Shown: one piece after another, positions 1 through 62,720 of the stretch
How the letters are laid out: each line of letters begins with the position of its first letter
How positions within the stretch are numbered: the stretch's first letter is position 1
Assembly (NCBI GenBank): GCA_028713325.1
Contig: JAQTON010000001.1
Location: forward strand, 447,454-511,453
Reading direction: 5' to 3'
From: Candidatus Altimarinota bacterium
GTDB lineage: Bacteria; Patescibacteriota; Gracilibacteria; BD1-5; UBA2023
DNA: 64,000 nt
Notes under the pieces: generated by a model
Told to the model about the DNA's origin: nothing
The model's database searches: none
What the model saw: only the letters and a program-made list of their open reading frames with translations
Position numbers and translations under genes: made by a program

Positions 1-741
1 GGAATCGACAATATTTTCCCACACCATGAGAATGAAATCGCCCAAAGCGAGGCATATAGCGGGAAGAAATTCGCCCGGTACTGGATGCACGCGGGACACC
101 TACTCGTGGACAACAAGAAGATGGCGAAATCCGCCGGCAATTTCTATACGCTTGCGGATATCGTCGCAAAAGTTCCGAGCGAGAAACCGGAGATGGTATA
201 CCGAGGATTCCGTCTTATGAATCTCCAAACGCGTTATCGAGAGAATTTCAATTTTACCTTTGATCGTCTTACCGTGGCTATTCAAACGGTCAAGAGTTTT
301 GACGAAGTCGTAAAACGTCTCAAACACTATAACGCACCTTCTCGGAAAATATTTCGAGATTTTCGGGAGATGATGCAACAGTACATTCAGGCATATATCG
401 AGTGTCTTGAGGATGATATAGGAACTCCCGAGGCTCTCGCCATCGTTTTTGATTGCTTTGGATTCATTAACAGTGGAATCGATAGCAATGCTTTTTCTCA
501 GGAAGAAAAAAACGCTATAATAGATATTCTTCACTCTTTTGATGCAGTGCTTGGACTTTTTGATTTTTCCCTTCTGGAATCCACGGAAATTCCCGAGGAA
601 ATAGAGCTCCTGCTTATGAAACGAAATGAGGCGAAGGCACAAAAAAACTATCCGCTTGCGGATAGTTTGAGAGATCAGATAGGGGAGAACGGGTATAAAA
701 TTGTGGATGATAAGGGGGGGAGTCATGTAGAGAAACTTTAA
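1..741 (+). CDS. cysS: Cysteinyl-tRNA synthetase, C-terminal part (5' truncated by window)
   Basis: Charges tRNA-Cys with cysteine in the cytoplasm. The visible 246 residues begin inside the class I catalytic domain: HHENEIAQSE, then FARYWMH, then HLLVDNKKMAKSAGNFYTL. KMAKS is the KMSKS ATP-binding signature with Ala for the first Ser. The helical DALR-type anticodon-binding region follows, ending with the usual RDxxxADxxR-like stretch (NYPLADSLRDQI). The start lies before the window; the full enzyme is normally about 460-480 residues. No in-frame TGA occurs here. The TAA stop overlaps the stop of the convergent LemA-like gene by four bases. Confidence 0.95.
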   Translation, partial: GIDNIFPHHENEIAQSEAYSGKKFARYWMHAGHLLVDNKKMAKSAGNFYTLADIVAKVPSEKPEMVYRGFRLMNLQTRYRENFNFTFDRLTVAIQTVKSFDEVVKRLKHYNAPSRKIFRDFREMMQQYIQAYIECLEDDIGTPEALAIVFDCFGFINSGIDSNAFSQEEKNAIIDILHSFDAVLGLFDFSLLESTEIPEEIELLLMKRNEAKAQKNYPLADSLRDQIGENGYKIVDDKGGSHVEKL

Positions 742-11725: not shown

Positions 11726-14035
11726 CTACTCACTCTTCGGTATCCCGTAGTAATTGAACAGGTATTTGGCAATCTTCGAGAATACCGCTGAGGAAGTGGT
11801 TTCAGAATACTGTGCACTCCGCGGTCGTTCGATTTTCACGATCATAACGAACTTCGGATTCGAAGCCGGAGCAAATCCTCCGTAGGAGGTGATGGTATGT
11901 CCCGCTTCTCCGACTTCGTATTTTCCTTTGGCGGCAATCTGAGACGTTCCCGTCTTCCCGGCGACATCGTACCCGTCCACTCAACCTTTCTTCGCGAACC
12001 CTATCTTGGCTCCTTCCGTGAGCATAGCGATAATCTTCTTGGAAGTATCCTCCTTAATAACACGACGAAGGGGTGTCGGTGCGTTTTTCACCACTGTTCC
12101 GTCGGCAAGAGTGAGACTATCGACTATATAGGGTTGCATATAGATTCACCCGTTCGCAAGGGCTGAATAGGCGGATGCCATCTGGAGAACAGTCGCGGTG
12201 ATACCCTGTCAGAACGCCATGGTAAAGAGTTTTACTCGGGCCCATTTCTCGTAGGGATCGATTTTTCCGAAGACCTCTCCATCCAGTGTGATATTGGTTT
12301 TCTGTCCGAAGCCAAAATCATTGATATACTTGAAAAAAAGAGATTTTCCTATTTTTTGCACGATATCGATCATACCGACGTTACAACTCCAATCAAGGGC
12401 GTGAGCATACGTATGCCGTCCGATACACTCATCGGAGACGTTTTTGATTTTGTACTGATCTATCTCCACATATCCTTTATCCGTATAGGTATCGGATGGT
12501 TTTATATCGCCCGTATCGATACCTATAGCCATAGTAACGGCTTTAAATACGGAACCCGGCTCATAGAGAGAGCTTATTGGATCGGCCTCGTATACTCCGG
12601 GACCGAACATATTTTTGTATTTGTATTTAGGGATAGCTCTGTTATCGATCTCTCATTCGGTTGCGGTTCGGAGCGATATTTTTTTCTTCCCAACCATTAT
12701 CGGAGCTCATTTTTCTGAATCTTCCACAAAGAGGGGTACGCCAAGGAGGTCAAAAGAAGGATTTGGATACTTGGAGTAACTTACTCGTTCCAGTTCATAG
12801 ACATCTCCGAAGTTATTCGGATCGAAATCCGGATAGCTTACCATGGAGATGATAGCTCCGGTTTTGGGATCCATGATAACCACCGAGCCCTTGTTGGCAC
12901 GAAATTCCTTGATTCCCTCCGAGAGGATTTTCGTCACTTCCTTCTGAACGTTTCTATCAATGGTAAGTTTGATGTCGGTTCCGTTTACCATCTTCCGTTC
13001 CCCGAGGTCAAACGACCCGATGGTACGTCCCGAGATGTCTTTTTTCGCAATGCGTGCCCCTTCCTTTCATTTGAGTTCTTCATTGAAATACCCTTCCACC
13101 CCGTATTTTCCCTCATTTTCATTGTCCACGAAACCGACAATCTGACCGCCCATATTTTTTTCCGGATAGAATCGGGTCGGGTTTGCTTCCAGGATGAAGA
13201 AATGGGAAATACTTTCCGTATCGAGCATGCGTCCTTGAGCGATATTCACCTTCTCGGCTTGTATCCGGGCATCGATCATATCGCGTGTGGAAAGACCCAT
13301 TTTTCGAAGGATTTTTACGTACCGTACCGTACGTTTGGAGAGCTTGAAGTCGAGTTCCTCTTTGGAAAGGGCAAGAAGATTCATAAGTTTCGCGACCATG
13401 GCATCTTTGTTGTTTACCATTGTCGGATCCACATAGAGACTGTTATTGATGATACCAAAAGAGCTTCCCGATCACTCCGTCAGGTATTTGAGGTCATTCG
13501 CCTCTTTTTCATTCAGACTTTCTTTTACTATGACGGAATCTATGAATTCTTTGGAGATTTTCCTGTGGATATCCTCGCGAATCTTATTTTTGACACTTTC
13601 ATCACTGGTGATGAACTCTTCATCTGGAATTTGCCTGAGATAATTGAAGAGATTTTCGGTACACCGATCATCCGATTTTTGAGAACAAACTTCCTCGAAT
13701 ACCACGTCTGTCAAGAAAGCTTCCAGCTTGTCTTTTGACCCCACTTCTTTCGGGTCTATGGCAAGATCCGAGAGGTCGGTACTGGTGGCAAATACTCCGG
13801 CGGGCTCGTTGTTGGAATATATCGTCCCGCGAGAAACCGGATTCTTCACCGTCATCATCTGTTGTTTATCCGCAAGTCCCTTGTAGTACGGATACTCCAG
13901 AACCGTGTATTTGAAGGCTATAGAGATGATAAGAAGAGCAAAAAGTGCAAATGCGACAAATACCACACGAACCCGTTCGATATTCGAGAGTCGTGCGATA
14001 ACAACATTGAGGAAGTGATTGATTTTTTTCTGCAT
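11726..14035 (-). CDS. ftsI: Division-type penicillin-binding protein (FtsI/PBP2 class B)
   Basis: A 769-residue transpeptidase that cross-links peptidoglycan, with one N-terminal TM helix (VVFVAFALFALLIISIAF), a class B dimerisation domain (SRGTIYSNN, GRMLDTESISHFF, EANPTRFYPEKNMGGQIVGFV) and a transpeptidase domain with SxxK (EPGSVFKAV), SxN (SCNVGM) and KTG (VAGKTGTSQ). At least five in-frame TGAs (for example 13067, 12707 and 12209 regions) break it under the standard code. At 769 residues it is longer than the usual 580-700, mostly by an insertion in the N-terminal half. Downstream of the PriA-like gene, 40 bases apart. Confidence 0.93.
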
Positions 14036-22975: not shown

Positions 22976-24106
22976 ATGCCATATAAATCTCTAGAAAACT
23001 GAAAAATTCAGTACATTTGAAACAATATTAATAAGCCAAAAATTATTAATTACAAAGAGGTAGATCTTAATCTACTTCAAAATAGAGTTGATCGAATCAG
23101 AACCGAAGAAACATTTTTTCATATTGCAAATATTGATAATGCAATTTTCGATGCAGCTATCAATTATTTTAGGTCATTCGATGCACGATGGACAAACCTT
23201 CCATTAACTACACTAATGATTTCTTCTCCTGGGGAAGTATATGCTGGTCAAAAACTTAATTACACGACCGATACACTTCCAATGGAAATTCCAGACTGGT
23301 TTTGAAGCGGAAAAAGAATTTTCTTATCAGAGAGTTCTCAATTTTATTTAGAGCTCCAATTACTTATTCCTAAGCTAAGCCAGGTATATAGTATATATAA
23401 TAGCTTTCGAAAAGAGCAAGCTGATGCAACCCATCTCTCAGAATTTCAGCATATTGAGTATGAAGGAAAAGTTGATGCAGAAGAGTGTATCTGAGTATTT
23501 ACTGGGCTTTTCGATGCTATCGTTAAACATGTTTTTACTAATAATGAATCGGATATTCGATATTTTCTTTCTGAAACTCAGTTTGAAGAAAAAAAGAGAA
23601 TTGCACTGCAGAAACCGATACGTATTTCATTTTTTGATGCACTCTCGAAGCTTTACGAAGTAACTTGAGATGAGAAATATAAAGAATTCAGTCTAAAAAA
23701 CTTTGGAACTTGGGAGGAAGTAAGGCTAACAGAAATGCTCTGAGGAAACGTTATTGTAGAGGAATTTCCAATGCTTCAGATCCCATTTTATCATGCTATT
23801 GCAGAAAAAGAGGTCGCTGGAGTTCCAGTCGCAAAAAATGCAGATTTCATCCTCTATGGATATAGGGAAACTATCTGAAGTGGTGAGCGAATAAAAAACA
23901 AGGATGTGCTTCTCAAGAAAGCGGAAATTTTTAATCTTCCAGAAAACGACTATCTTCCATATCTTCAATCTCGGAATTACTCAGACTATACTACAACAAG
24001 TGGTTTTGGACTTGGATGGCAGAGGCTCGTTCAATGGCTCACTGATCAGCCATATATCTATGAAGCAACAGTATTTCCAAGAACGCATATAATTCCTAAT
24101 CCGTAA
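22976..24106 (+). CDS. AsnRS/AspRS-like class II catalytic core without anticodon domain
   Basis: A 376-residue protein matching the catalytic core of asparaginyl/aspartyl-tRNA synthetases: RIFLSESSQFYLELQ (cf. YLxxSxQLYxE), motif 2 FRKEQADATHLSEFQHIEYE, GSGERIKN, and motif 3 GFGLGWQRLVQWLT. There is no N-terminal OB anticodon-binding domain, so it is unlikely to be a normal synthetase. Known stand-alone relatives include asparagine synthetases of the AsnRS-related type; here it could amidate Asp, adenylate a peptide or amino acid, or protect against an inhibitor of the real enzyme. Seven TGA glycines by my count. First gene of the module 1 operon; the next start is 3 bases after its stop. 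Confidence 0.8.
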
Positions 24107-24486: not shown

Positions 24487-25317
24487 ATGTCATCTATAAC
24501 AAATATTACGGAAGAATCATTAAGAAGTATGTCTTATGTTGACTTTATGGCACATATCAATGAAACCAATCGGTGTCCTGGTGGTAAAGATTCTGTGAGA
24601 CAACTTATGCAAAATACCTTTCTTAATTCGGAATCAAAAGTATTGGATGTTGGGTGTAATACTTGATATGTGAGTTTTGAGATAGGAAGGACAATTAAAT
24701 GTGATGTTACAGGACTAGATATCAATGAAAATATGGTCGCGCAATCAAAAAATAATAATACCGATCCTATTGCTTCTAAGTATGTGGATTTTGTCGTCTG
24801 AGATGGTCAAAGTTTGCCATTTCCAGATAATTCCTTTGATCTCGTTACAAGCTGAGGATCTACTATATTTATTCCTAATTTACAGAAATGACTCACGGAA
24901 TACAAGAGGGTATGTAAGGATTGGGGCTTCATTGGAGATATTAACTTTTTTTATGGAAAAGAAGTTCCAACCAAAACTATAGCAAAAATAAATGAACTCC
25001 TCGGAATCGATATTCAGCCATGGAACATTGATTTCTTTCTTAATCTTTATGAATCTGTTGGGCTTGAGAAATATCATATTTATACTGGAGAGACACATAA
25101 ACCAACGAAAGAGGAGTTAAAAATGTACTGCAAAGAAATGATCCAGAACTCTCAATATGGGGAACTTTCTCGCGAATTACAAGATGCTGCTTTTGATAAA
25201 TTTTATGAGTATATGGAATTGTTTTACGAAAACAATAGGTATCTTTCCTATGGGGTATTTATTTACAGAAAACGTCCAGAAGAATACAAGGAACAAATAT
25301 CTTTATTTTGATATTAA
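24487..25317 (+). CDS. Class I SAM-dependent methyltransferase (type 11-like)
   Basis: A 276-residue protein with motif I VLDVGCNTGYVSFEIG, the acidic motif II residue in VTGLDINENM, motif III VVGDGQSLPFPDNSFDLVTSGGS, and a C-terminal helical extension of about 110 residues that may cover the substrate. TGA codes Gly inside motif I and at several other sites. The substrate is unknown; because speD is next to it, transfer of an aminopropyl rather than a methyl group is conceivable, but nothing in the motifs proves it. Confidence 0.85.
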
Positions 25318-58693: not shown

Positions 58694-59134
58694 TTATGCA
58701 GCAAGCTCTCGTCCGTACGTGAAGAGTTCATTTTCCTTGAAAAATCGTGCTATTTCGACAGTACCGGCTTCTTCACTATCGGAAGAATGGATGATATTGT
58801 TGTCGATATTCTTCGCGAAATCTCCACGAATCGTTCCGGGAAGTGCATCGGCGGGATTGGTTGCTCCACACATGGTTCGAACTACTTTGATGGCATCATG
58901 TCCTTCGATGGCAATAGCAACGATGGGGCCCGACATCATGAATCCAGCCAAGAATTTATAAAATCCTTTTGATACGTGATCGGAATAATGGGAATCACAA
59001 AGTGATTGATCCATCTGAAGCATCTTAAGTCCAATAACTTTAAGACCCTTTTGTTCGAAACGAGCAAGAATAGTGCCGATAAGTGATTTCTGAATGGTAT
59101 CCGGTTTCAAAAGTACCAATGTTTTTTGAGACAT
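58694..59134 (-). CDS. ndk: Nucleoside-diphosphate kinase
   Basis: 146 residues: KTLVLLKPDTIQKSLIGTILARFEQKG, GTIRGDFA and NIIHSSDSEEAGTVEIARFF, whose His is phosphorylated in the reaction. It balances NTP and dNTP pools and complements NrdAB. ATG 59134 is the standard family start. No TGA. Confidence 0.97.
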   Translation of the reverse strand: MSQKTLVLLKPDTIQKSLIGTILARFEQKGLKVIGLKMLQMDQSLCDSHYSDHVSKGFYKFLAGFMMSGPIVAIAIEGHDAIKVVRTMCGATNPADALPGTIRGDFAKNIDNNIIHSSDSEEAGTVEIARFFKENELFTYGRELAA

Positions 59135-59212: not shown

Positions 59213-59240
59213 TTGACTTTCCGAGCTTTTTTCATAGAAT
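59213..59240 (+). promoter_or_regulatory. Promoter of tRNA-Gly(UCA)
   Basis: TTGACT (59213-59218), 16-base spacer, TAGAAT (59235-59240), 43 bases before the tRNA. tRNA-Arg follows on the same strand 48 bases later and may share it. Confidence 0.75.
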
Positions 59241-59282
59241 ACCGGTCGCTCAAGTCGATGATAGTATCGATTTACCACTTTT

Positions 59283-59361
59283 GCGGGGGTAACATAACTG
59301 AGTGAGTGTACTAAGGCTTCAACCCTTGGGTGTGTCGGTTCGAACCCGATTCCCCGCTCCA
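59283..59361 (+). tRNA. tRNA-Gly(UCA), decoder of UGA as glycine
   Basis: Acceptor GCGGGGG / TCCCCGC with U73 and encoded CCA, as in bacterial tRNA-Gly (G1-C72, C2-G71, U73 identity). D arm ACAT / GTGT, anticodon stem TAAGG / CCTTG and loop CTTCAAC, giving T33 and anticodon TCA, which pairs with UGA. T arm GTCGG TTCGAAC CCGAT. The D loop lacks the usual GG pair and there is an extra base before the anticodon stem. This tRNA explains the in-frame TGA codons at conserved Gly positions. Confidence 0.88.
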
Positions 59362-59409: not shown

Positions 59410-59487
59410 GCAGCCGTAGTTCAGTTGGATTAGAATGCCTCCCTGCGAAGGAGGAGGTCACTGGTTCGAGCCCAGTCGGTTGCACCA
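59410..59487 (+). tRNA. tRNA-Arg(GCG)
   Basis: Acceptor GCAGCCG / CGGTTGC, anticodon stem CCTCC / GGAGG with loop CTGCGAA (anticodon GCG, codons CGC/CGT), T arm ACTGG TTCGAGC CCAGT, A73 and encoded CCA. D loop has A20. Most bacteria read these codons with an ACG anticodon, so GCG is less common. Confidence 0.88.
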
Positions 59488-60787: not shown

Positions 60788-62647
60788 TTACACCAATCCG
60801 TGTTCTTTCAATGTCTCCATCTGTCTTTTTGTCAAAACTTTCTCGATATCCTCTCGTGGAATGTTCTGAAGATTGTCGATACTTCCAGCGAGTTTCAGTA
60901 TATTCTTTCGTGCAACCGGACCGAATCCGGGAAGTTCCTCGAGGATATTTTTCTTCATCGCTTTGCTTCGAGCACTTCTATTGAATCCTATCGCGAATCT
61001 ATGAGACTCATCCCGTATCTTTTGGAGAAGCATGAGTTCCATAGAACCTTTTTCAAAAAGGATGGGGTCTTTTTGAAAGGGCACGAATATCTCCTCTTCG
61101 CGTTTCGCGATTGAGCACAAATAAGGGAGAACTACCGGATTTTTTCATTCGCAGGCTCAATACATAGCCTCGAGAGCAGAAGAAAGTTGCCCCTTCCCAC
61201 CATCGATAATAATCATATCGGGAAAGTTATTCTGCTCGATACCTTCCAGGATACGTCTGTAAAGAACTTCTCGAATGGATGCAAAATCATCGATCATTCC
61301 CGGTTGAAGCGTCTTGATTTTATATTTTCGATACCGGGAAGTTTCGCTTTTCCCGTTCACGATAACCGATCGTGAAGCGACAGTGAATTGACCATGAGTA
61401 TGAGAGATATCATAGCATTCAAATACCATTTCTCATTTCTTCTTCGCTCCATATCCCAACCGCTCCAGTATATGAACCTGCGTCATTCTCGTCGGAGTTT
61501 TAATCGCAAGCGAGTGCATTTTTTCACGTTCGGCAAACGAGAGAAGATTATATTCGGTAAAACGGAGGATGTCTATTTTCGGACCTATTTTCGGACATTC
61601 GATTTCTCGCTTTTTTTCCATGAGTGCTTGAAATAGGACGATATCCTCCAGTTCTTTTTTGAGAAGGATTTTCACGCTTACGGGAATATCTTCTGTCAAA
61701 TAGCGTTTTGCGAGAAAAACCCTGAGTACTTCTTCCGGGGTTTCTTCGAGATTATTTTCCACTTCCATCTGGGATACTCCCACTATGTGTCATGACCTGA
61801 TTTCCGTGAATCCTAAAAAGTTTTTGCCATACTTTTCTACGGAGACTATCGCGTCATAGTCCCCGGGAATGCTATCTCTGGCTATTTGTTTCGTTCCGAG
61901 TTTTTCAATCTGTTCGATTTGAAGTTTCAATTTTTGGGCTTCTTCAAATTCCAGTTTTTTGGCTTTTTCCTGCATCTTTTTTCGGAGCTCTTCAATGACC
62001 GCAATGCTTTTTCCCGAAAGAAATTGCTTCAGAGAAGCAATGTTATCTCCGTATATTTTTATCTTTTCCTCCTCAAGCAGGCATGGTGCCGGACAAAGCC
62101 CGATGGAGTAATCCAGACATGGAATGCTTTTCCCTGCCTTATTTCCAATATATATTTTCCCGTCTCGTTCCATGAATTCCACATGACAGCTCCGAATTCC
62201 AAAAGTGCGTCTCAGGATCTTAAGAATCTCCGTCACATTCGCCCCGGCAGTATAGGGACCAAAATATATTCAAGAGTCCTTTTTATTGCGGGTTTTTATG
62301 ACTTCCGGAACCATACCGGAAGTGATGTGAATATAGGCGAGATTCTTCCCGTCCTTCATGAGGATATTGTATTTCGGTTGTTTTTCTTTAATCAGATTTG
62401 TCTCCAGTACGAGTGCCTCGAGATCATTTCTGGTCTCAATAATCTCGATATCCAGCACCTGCTTTATCAGAGATTGTTTTGCAAAATTCAATCTTTTTTC
62501 ATCACTCCAGTAAGAACTCACTCTGGAGTGAAGATTCACCGATTTTCCCACGTAAATAATCGTTCACTCTTTATTTTTCATGCAATACACCCCCGGAGAA
62601 AAGGGGAGAGTAGCGATGATTTCCAGTATATGAACAGGGGTTTTCAT
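60788..62647 (-). CDS. uvrC: Excinuclease ABC subunit C
   Basis: 619 residues. GIY-YIG nuclease at the N-terminus (SPGVYCMKNKEGTIIYVGKSVNLHSRV), a UvrB-binding UVR motif (IEELRKKMQEKAKKLEFEEAQKLKLQIEQIEKL), the RNase H-like C-terminal nuclease (ECYDISHTHG, FPDMIIIDGGKGQLSSAL) and helix-hairpin-helix units (ELPGFGPVARKNILKL). It makes both cuts in nucleotide excision repair. Five or more TGA glycines, including one in the GIY-YIG domain, shatter the gene under the standard code. Confidence 0.95.
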
Positions 62648-62720
62648 TGGGAAATATATTTGCAAAATAGAAGTTTTTTCTTATATTCATTCTTCATTCT
62701 TAATTTTTAGTTATCTATTT

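Follow-up and report, generated by a model that had tools for sequence, protein, structure and literature searches.

A tRNA-Gly(UCA) gene with a conserved atypical D loop in a Gracilibacterium that reads UGA as glycine

In Mycoplasma (code 4), a tRNA-Trp with a UCA anticodon captured UGA after loss of release factor 2 (RF2), and UGA and UGG have one meaning. A stop codon is also decoded by tRNA-Pyl, which has a six-pair anticodon stem and a D loop without the GG pair. A split of the UGR codons between two amino acids, glycine and tryptophan, should be hard to maintain under the wobble rules. The tRNA-Gly(UCA) of code 25 is reportedly known from SR1/Absconditabacteria and BD1-5/Gracilibacteria through the work of Campbell et al. 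2013, Rinke et al. 2013 and Hanke et al. 2014. The ambiguity between UGA and UGG that accompanies the UGA to glycine change is noted in the Codetta paper (PMC8629427). Proteomics of a BD1-5 population yielded 97 UGA-Gly vs 3 UGA-Trp peptides (PMC4032931), and prfB was undetected in every available BD1-5 genome (PMC6851277). Here a UCA tRNA gene was analyzed in a stretch of 64,000 nucleotides (the window) from a genome of 1.05 Mb in 5 contigs that is 94.9% complete (G000). Very probably the gene encodes the functional tRNA-Gly(UCA) of a code-25 Gracilibacterium of the BD1-5 group and is the only UGA decoder of that genome.

ARAGORN detected a tRNA of 79 nt with a tca anticodon, which it labeled SeC solely owing to that anticodon (Table 1). 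Its score with the Rfam tRNA model is 43 bits (E 8.6e-6), above the gathering score of 29. Divided into structural elements the sequence reads GCGGGGG TA ACAT AACTGAGTGA GTGT A C TAAGG CTTCAAC CCTTG G GTGT GTCGG TTCGAAC CCGAT TCCCCGC TCCA. The acceptor is of the glycine type, with G1-C72, C2-G71, G3-C70 and U73, all of them invariant across the UCA tRNA loci of relatives. In the D loop A14, A15, G18 and A21 occupy the expected places, G19 is replaced by A, and the G19-C56 pair cannot form normally. The original prediction, made from the sequence alone, had described a cloverleaf with G1-C72, C2-G71 and U73, the UCA anticodon and a D loop lacking GG, all of which are present. A selenocysteine tRNA, inserting Sec at UGA in special sites, would share the anticodon. 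However, such tRNAs have a long acceptor/T stack, a 6-bp D stem and a long variable arm, whereas the window tRNA has a 7-bp acceptor, a 4-bp D stem and a variable region of 4-5 nt, and about 200 UGA codons in the window are ordinary glycine codons. A selenocysteine identity is hardly credible.

Table 1. Positions of the tRNA locus, its neighbors and recoded genes in the window
Feature	Position	Strand	Basis
Promoter: -35 TTGACT (59213-59218), 16-nt spacer, -10 TAGAAT (59235-59240)	59213..59240	+	Conserved upstream of orthologues
tRNA-Gly(UCA) gene, CCA encoded	59283..59361	+	ARAGORN, Rfam tRNA 43 bits, covarying cloverleaf
D loop AACTGAGTGA; G18 = 59300, A19 = 59301 (replacing the usual G19)	59296..59305	+	G18-A19-G20 invariant in 63/63 order loci
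Anticodon arm, extra sixth pair C26a (59311)-G44 (59329)	59311..59329	+	CG in 21/22, UA in 1/22 full-length variants
Anticodon UCA	59319..59321	+	ARAGORN; invariant in relatives, though the search pattern required UCA
tRNA-Arg(GCG), 48 nt downstream of UCA tRNA	59410..59487	+	ARAGORN
Nucleoside diphosphate kinase, divergent upstream neighbor	58694..59134	-	Pfam NDK 171 bits
Penicillin-binding protein 2 (PBP2), recoded, 7 in-frame UGA	11726..14035	-	Three UGA align with conserved Gly
AsnRS-like protein, recoded, 7 UGA	22976..24106	+	One UGA at invariant Gly
SAM methyltransferase, recoded	24487..25317	+	UGA at last Gly of motif I (LDVGCNT-UGA)
UvrC, recoded, 6 in-frame UGA	60788..62665	-	Reading through UGA gives a known protein

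Relatives were collected by scanning a single genome of each species for a pattern; the scan returned 62 contigs with titles mostly of Gracilibacteria and a few of 'uncultured bacterium' or 'Patescibacteria group bacterium'. With the window these make 63 distinct loci from three families, comprising 22 full-length variants plus a single truncated copy. The pattern fixed the anticodon loop and part of the T arm, which are uninformative, and left the acceptor and D arm free. In the cloverleaf alignment 99.4% of cells are paired and eight pairs changed on both sides, a result equaled by 0/500 shuffles. Compensatory changes occur in the order loci at pairs 4-69, 10-25, 12-23, 28-42, 50-64, 51-63 and 52-62. 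The minimum free energy fold was no better than those of shuffled sequences (z -0.61) and also gives a six-pair anticodon stem. The structure was judged real because of conservation and covariation, the thermodynamic fold being uninformative. A suppressor or decayed tRNA was rejected, since the order loci show purifying selection and covariation. The ARAGORN call, the Rfam score and the eight doubly covarying pairs bear out a fold of tRNA quality, and the gene is a real, functional tRNA of a known kind, the code-25 tRNA-Gly(UCA).

The tRNA gene starts 42 nt behind the sequence that was originally proposed as its promoter. Taken alone, TTGACT-16-TAGAAT is not above chance, as 4 promoter-like sites were found vs 4.0 expected in shuffles. 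The arrangement TTGAC(A/T)-15..19-TANNNT is present upstream of 51/61 orthologous tRNA genes vs 0.6 expected, with a maximum of 3 in 200 mononucleotide shuffles. This conservation supports the proposal and indicates that the UCA tRNA gene has its own transcription start. In relatives the UCA gene is sometimes followed by tRNA-Arg(GCG) or tRNA-Gly(GCC), the former within 160 nt in 5/61 orthologous loci. The tRNA-Arg(GCG) of the window is possibly co-transcribed with the UCA tRNA.

Codon exchange was assessed with genes from the window together with those from about 60 contigs of Gracilibacteria, and UGA was seen to trade places with GGN codons. Where relatives have a clear consensus, 601/650 UGA columns are glycine, and UGA accounts for just 9/2241 of the aligned partners of UGG. 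CGA aligns with arginine in the code comparison; the CGA/CGG-to-Trp change described for Absconditabacteria was not seen here for CGA. As had been pointed out, decoder and recoded genes lie together in the window, with about 200 in-frame UGA vs 1097 GGN codons, or ~15% of the glycine codons, and genes read through UGA yield known proteins. UGA was read as X in alignments of PBP2, the methyltransferase and the AsnRS-like protein to solved structures. Beyond the glycine matches listed in Table 1 the UGA columns are variable, the closest to a contrary case being one Asp/Asp/Asn column in the divergent AsnRS-like protein. In rpoB of recoded genomes UGA falls nearly always at glycine columns with few exceptions (51/53 in order-mate G034) and never at the three invariant tryptophan columns. 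UGA is glycine in this genome.

These counts also bear on a decoder of the tRNA-Trp(UCA) type, which would read UGA as tryptophan as in Mycoplasma and would represent the other known bacterial UGA reassignment (PMC8629427). Against it stand the glycine columns, the absence of UGA from the rpoB tryptophan columns, and a glycine-type acceptor with U73 where the tRNA-Trp(CCA) of the genome has A1 and G73. A tryptophan decoder has next to nothing to recommend it over tRNA-Gly(UCA). The number of UGA codons in rpoB (loci L283-L293) ranges from 0 in the window genome to 75 in G034, so that within one order UGA use differs strongly between families.

UCA is the anticodon of 1/36 tRNAs in the genome, and this tRNA has the lowest score of all. 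No second UCA tRNA was found among the 36 in the 94.9% complete assembly, in agreement with a sole UCA decoder. The single release factor of the RF-1 family has the RF1-type PxT motif 'PET' (VHRVQRIPETE). When 192 genomes of the class were searched, RF2 was above the cut-off in none of the listed genomes of the window's order or of family f13, and most genomes of other families reached it. At this completeness an assembly gap might in principle conceal a second UCA tRNA or an RF2, although on RF2 the genomes of the order agree. The genome encodes a dimeric GlyRS. The GlyRS gene (L079, G000:C3) has two in-frame UGA, so the expected charging enzyme needs the UGA decoder for its own synthesis. 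Just one GGN-reading tRNA-Gly (UCC) was found in G000; tRNA-Gly(GCC), which adjoins the UCA gene in four relatives, is lost or lies in a gap. In the tRNA-Trp(CCA) of G000 (L031:158-232) the anticodon stem has the usual five pairs, which fits an argument made in PMC13092985 for a tRNA-Trp that has to leave UGA unread. The D stem of this tRNA contains U11-A24. The Hirsh mutation in E. coli tRNA-Trp creates this pair and confers UGA reading. By analogy U11-A24 could permit some tryptophan at UGA in G000.

The original prediction was that the odd D loop may point to an origin that is recent or under relaxed selection. That interpretation is not upheld. G18-A19-G20 is invariant in 63/63 loci of the order, the D loop of the UCA tRNA is the only one without GG among the 36 of the genome, and in the 93 tRNAs of the 62 relatives' loci GG is absent from UCA tRNAs only. 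The tRNA-Gly(UCA) of G042, a member of the sister lineage f13, has a normal GG D loop. Because of this invariance, the GG of the other tRNAs and the G042 copy, the change is considered specific to the order and constrained. Decay under relaxed or recent selection would fit the low covariance-model score and the loss of the near-universal G19. It would not be expected to leave the loop unchanged through three families in which other positions show compensatory changes and every other tRNA of those loci keeps GG. Neither relatives with G18G19 nor scattered D-loop variants were seen in the order loci. Decay is very unlikely, and the missing G19 is a fixed, order-wide feature that reflects constraint and not relaxation.

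A second peculiarity is C26a, an inserted base that pairs with G44 and extends the anticodon stem to six pairs; one variant has U-A instead. This pair and the G19-to-A change are probably old, selected features of the order. Watson-Crick 26:44 pairs also occur in 4/36 tRNAs of G000 and in 9/38 of G042. The idea that UGA decoders have a six-pair stem in common was considered and is weakened, since 26:44 pairs are common in G042 and absent from the UCA tRNAs of G011 and a phage-like contig (see below). What sets the order apart is solely the insertion C26a and the base that covaries with it. The tRNA pattern of the order had no match in IMG/VR. The fixed D-loop/hinge signature is new here, as is the correction of the 'recent' reading.

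In the proposed mechanism tRNA-Gly(UCA) would be transcribed from its own sigma-70-type promoter and charged by the dimeric GlyRS, predicted to recognize the acceptor (G1-C72, C2-G71, G3-C70, U73) and C35. Campbell et al. 2013 are said to have reported in vitro charging of the SR1 tRNA. With RF2 lost and RF1 restricted to UAA and UAG, no release factor would act at UGA, and the UCA tRNA would put glycine there. The original prediction that the recoding is enabled by this one gene stands as far as the UCA tRNA is the UGA decoder, but 'single gene' is overstated, since the recoding also involves the loss of RF2 and requires that GlyRS tolerate A36 and that UGG stay tryptophan. A19 and the 26a-44 pair may tune the hinge between D arm and anticodon arm such that a U34 tRNA reads UGA and not UGG.

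Wobble modification may also contribute. MnmG is needed for cmnm5U34. A search of ten class genomes (G000 and nine others), coded and recoded, found it in none of them, and the control of this search was positive in 12/14 reference genomes. Each of the split NNR boxes (Leu, Gln, Lys, Glu, Arg) has both UNN and CNN tRNAs in the window genome, in G042 and in the standard-code genome G103. This tRNA set suggests that the U34 tRNAs of these genomes are used chiefly for NNA codons and that an added UCA tRNA could take UGA without UGG. Loss of MnmEG wobble modification together with separate C34 tRNAs for NNG would help to keep UGG as tryptophan, and may be what lets UGA and UGG be split. Among the literature searched there was no paper on MnmE loss in Patescibacteria. 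The order-wide D-loop change, the hinge pair and the missing MnmG are testable candidates for what keeps UGG from being read as glycine.

Other lineages of the class were also inspected. G011 (family f14; loci L215:4485-4561, L245, L246 and L225-L264) has RF1 and an RF2 with the SPF motif, both intact, and a UCA tRNA (L215:4485-4561) with a glycine acceptor and a normal D loop. In-frame UGA occurs at glycine-like places (SPNG-UGA-ETF, CDDGN..UGA-DGCS repeats, a GG-UGA-GG run and a PilB-like CNNTGYK-UGA-RLG) and is concentrated in surface, secreted and pilus genes. Of its ORFs of >=200 codons, 279/344 are free of inner UGA and 32 contain at least four. Where UGA interrupts an ORF, the frame stays open for a median of 226 codons vs 13 in the standard-code control G103, indicating that UGA is seldom a stop in G011 despite RF2. 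G011 is a MAG in which RF2, the UCA tRNA and the UGA-rich genes are on different contigs; UGA-free and UGA-rich ORFs are mixed on its contigs, which speaks against simple contamination. G011 is an apparent intermediate of UGA to glycine reassignment. If confirmed, it would show a codon reassignment under way in a genome that retains RF2.

G012 (family f15; L292) has 77 UGA in a partial rpoB, and 52/58 consensus columns are glycine. Neither a UCA tRNA, among 26 tRNAs found, nor a release factor match was detected in its fragmented assembly. A quick rpoB tree, unrooted and limited by composition bias, places both G011 and G012 apart from the order and from f13, and the change in G012 apparently arose independently. 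Contig 33 of G177 (L216:19921-19994) carries a tRNA cluster with a different UCA tRNA that has a glycine acceptor, many UGA-containing ORFs and one HNH-like gene with UGA at a CxxC-Gly. This UCA tRNA was rejected as the own tRNA of an SR1-like host, the contig being phage-like and the f13 genome G042 carrying a different UCA tRNA.

These lineages can be joined in one account, which we hold as tentative and rather less probable than its negation. The class would be pre-adapted, because without MnmEG and with a C34 tRNA for each split-box NNG a U34 tRNA can own its NNA codon, and UGA to glycine would so have arisen more than once, in the order with f13, in G012 and in G011. G011 would be a living intermediate of codon capture, and A19 and the six-pair stem a later refinement of UGA/UGG discrimination. 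The wobble-modification precondition and the RF2-retaining intermediate are additional pointers from this analysis.

Compared with known systems, the window tRNA is most like the code-25 tRNA-Gly(UCA), with which it shares UCA, G1-C72/C2-G71/G3-C70, U73, UGA as glycine and the loss of RF2. It is also of the kind described by the Codetta study's rule for code-25 tRNAs (PMC8629427). Family f13, which lacks RF2 and which we infer to be SR1-like, is represented by the complete genome G042, whose copy differs in its canonical GG D loop and the absence of the 26a insertion, and is only 60% identical. The tRNA-Gly(UCC) of the same genome shares the glycine acceptor elements and U73, whereas it has C36, a canonical GG D loop and no extra pair. 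At 62% identity it is the closest tRNA jointly with tRNA-Asn, and origin from a given isoacceptor was not accepted on identity because of this tie. Mycoplasma tRNA-Trp(UCA) likewise combines a UCA tRNA with RF2 loss, but the amino acid differs, and UGA and UGG are split here and shared there. tRNA-Pyl has in common the decoding of a stop codon, the six-pair anticodon stem and the D loop without GG; the window tRNA differs in its normal T loop and variable region, its ordinary amino acid and its ordinary GlyRS, and the likeness is resemblance only.
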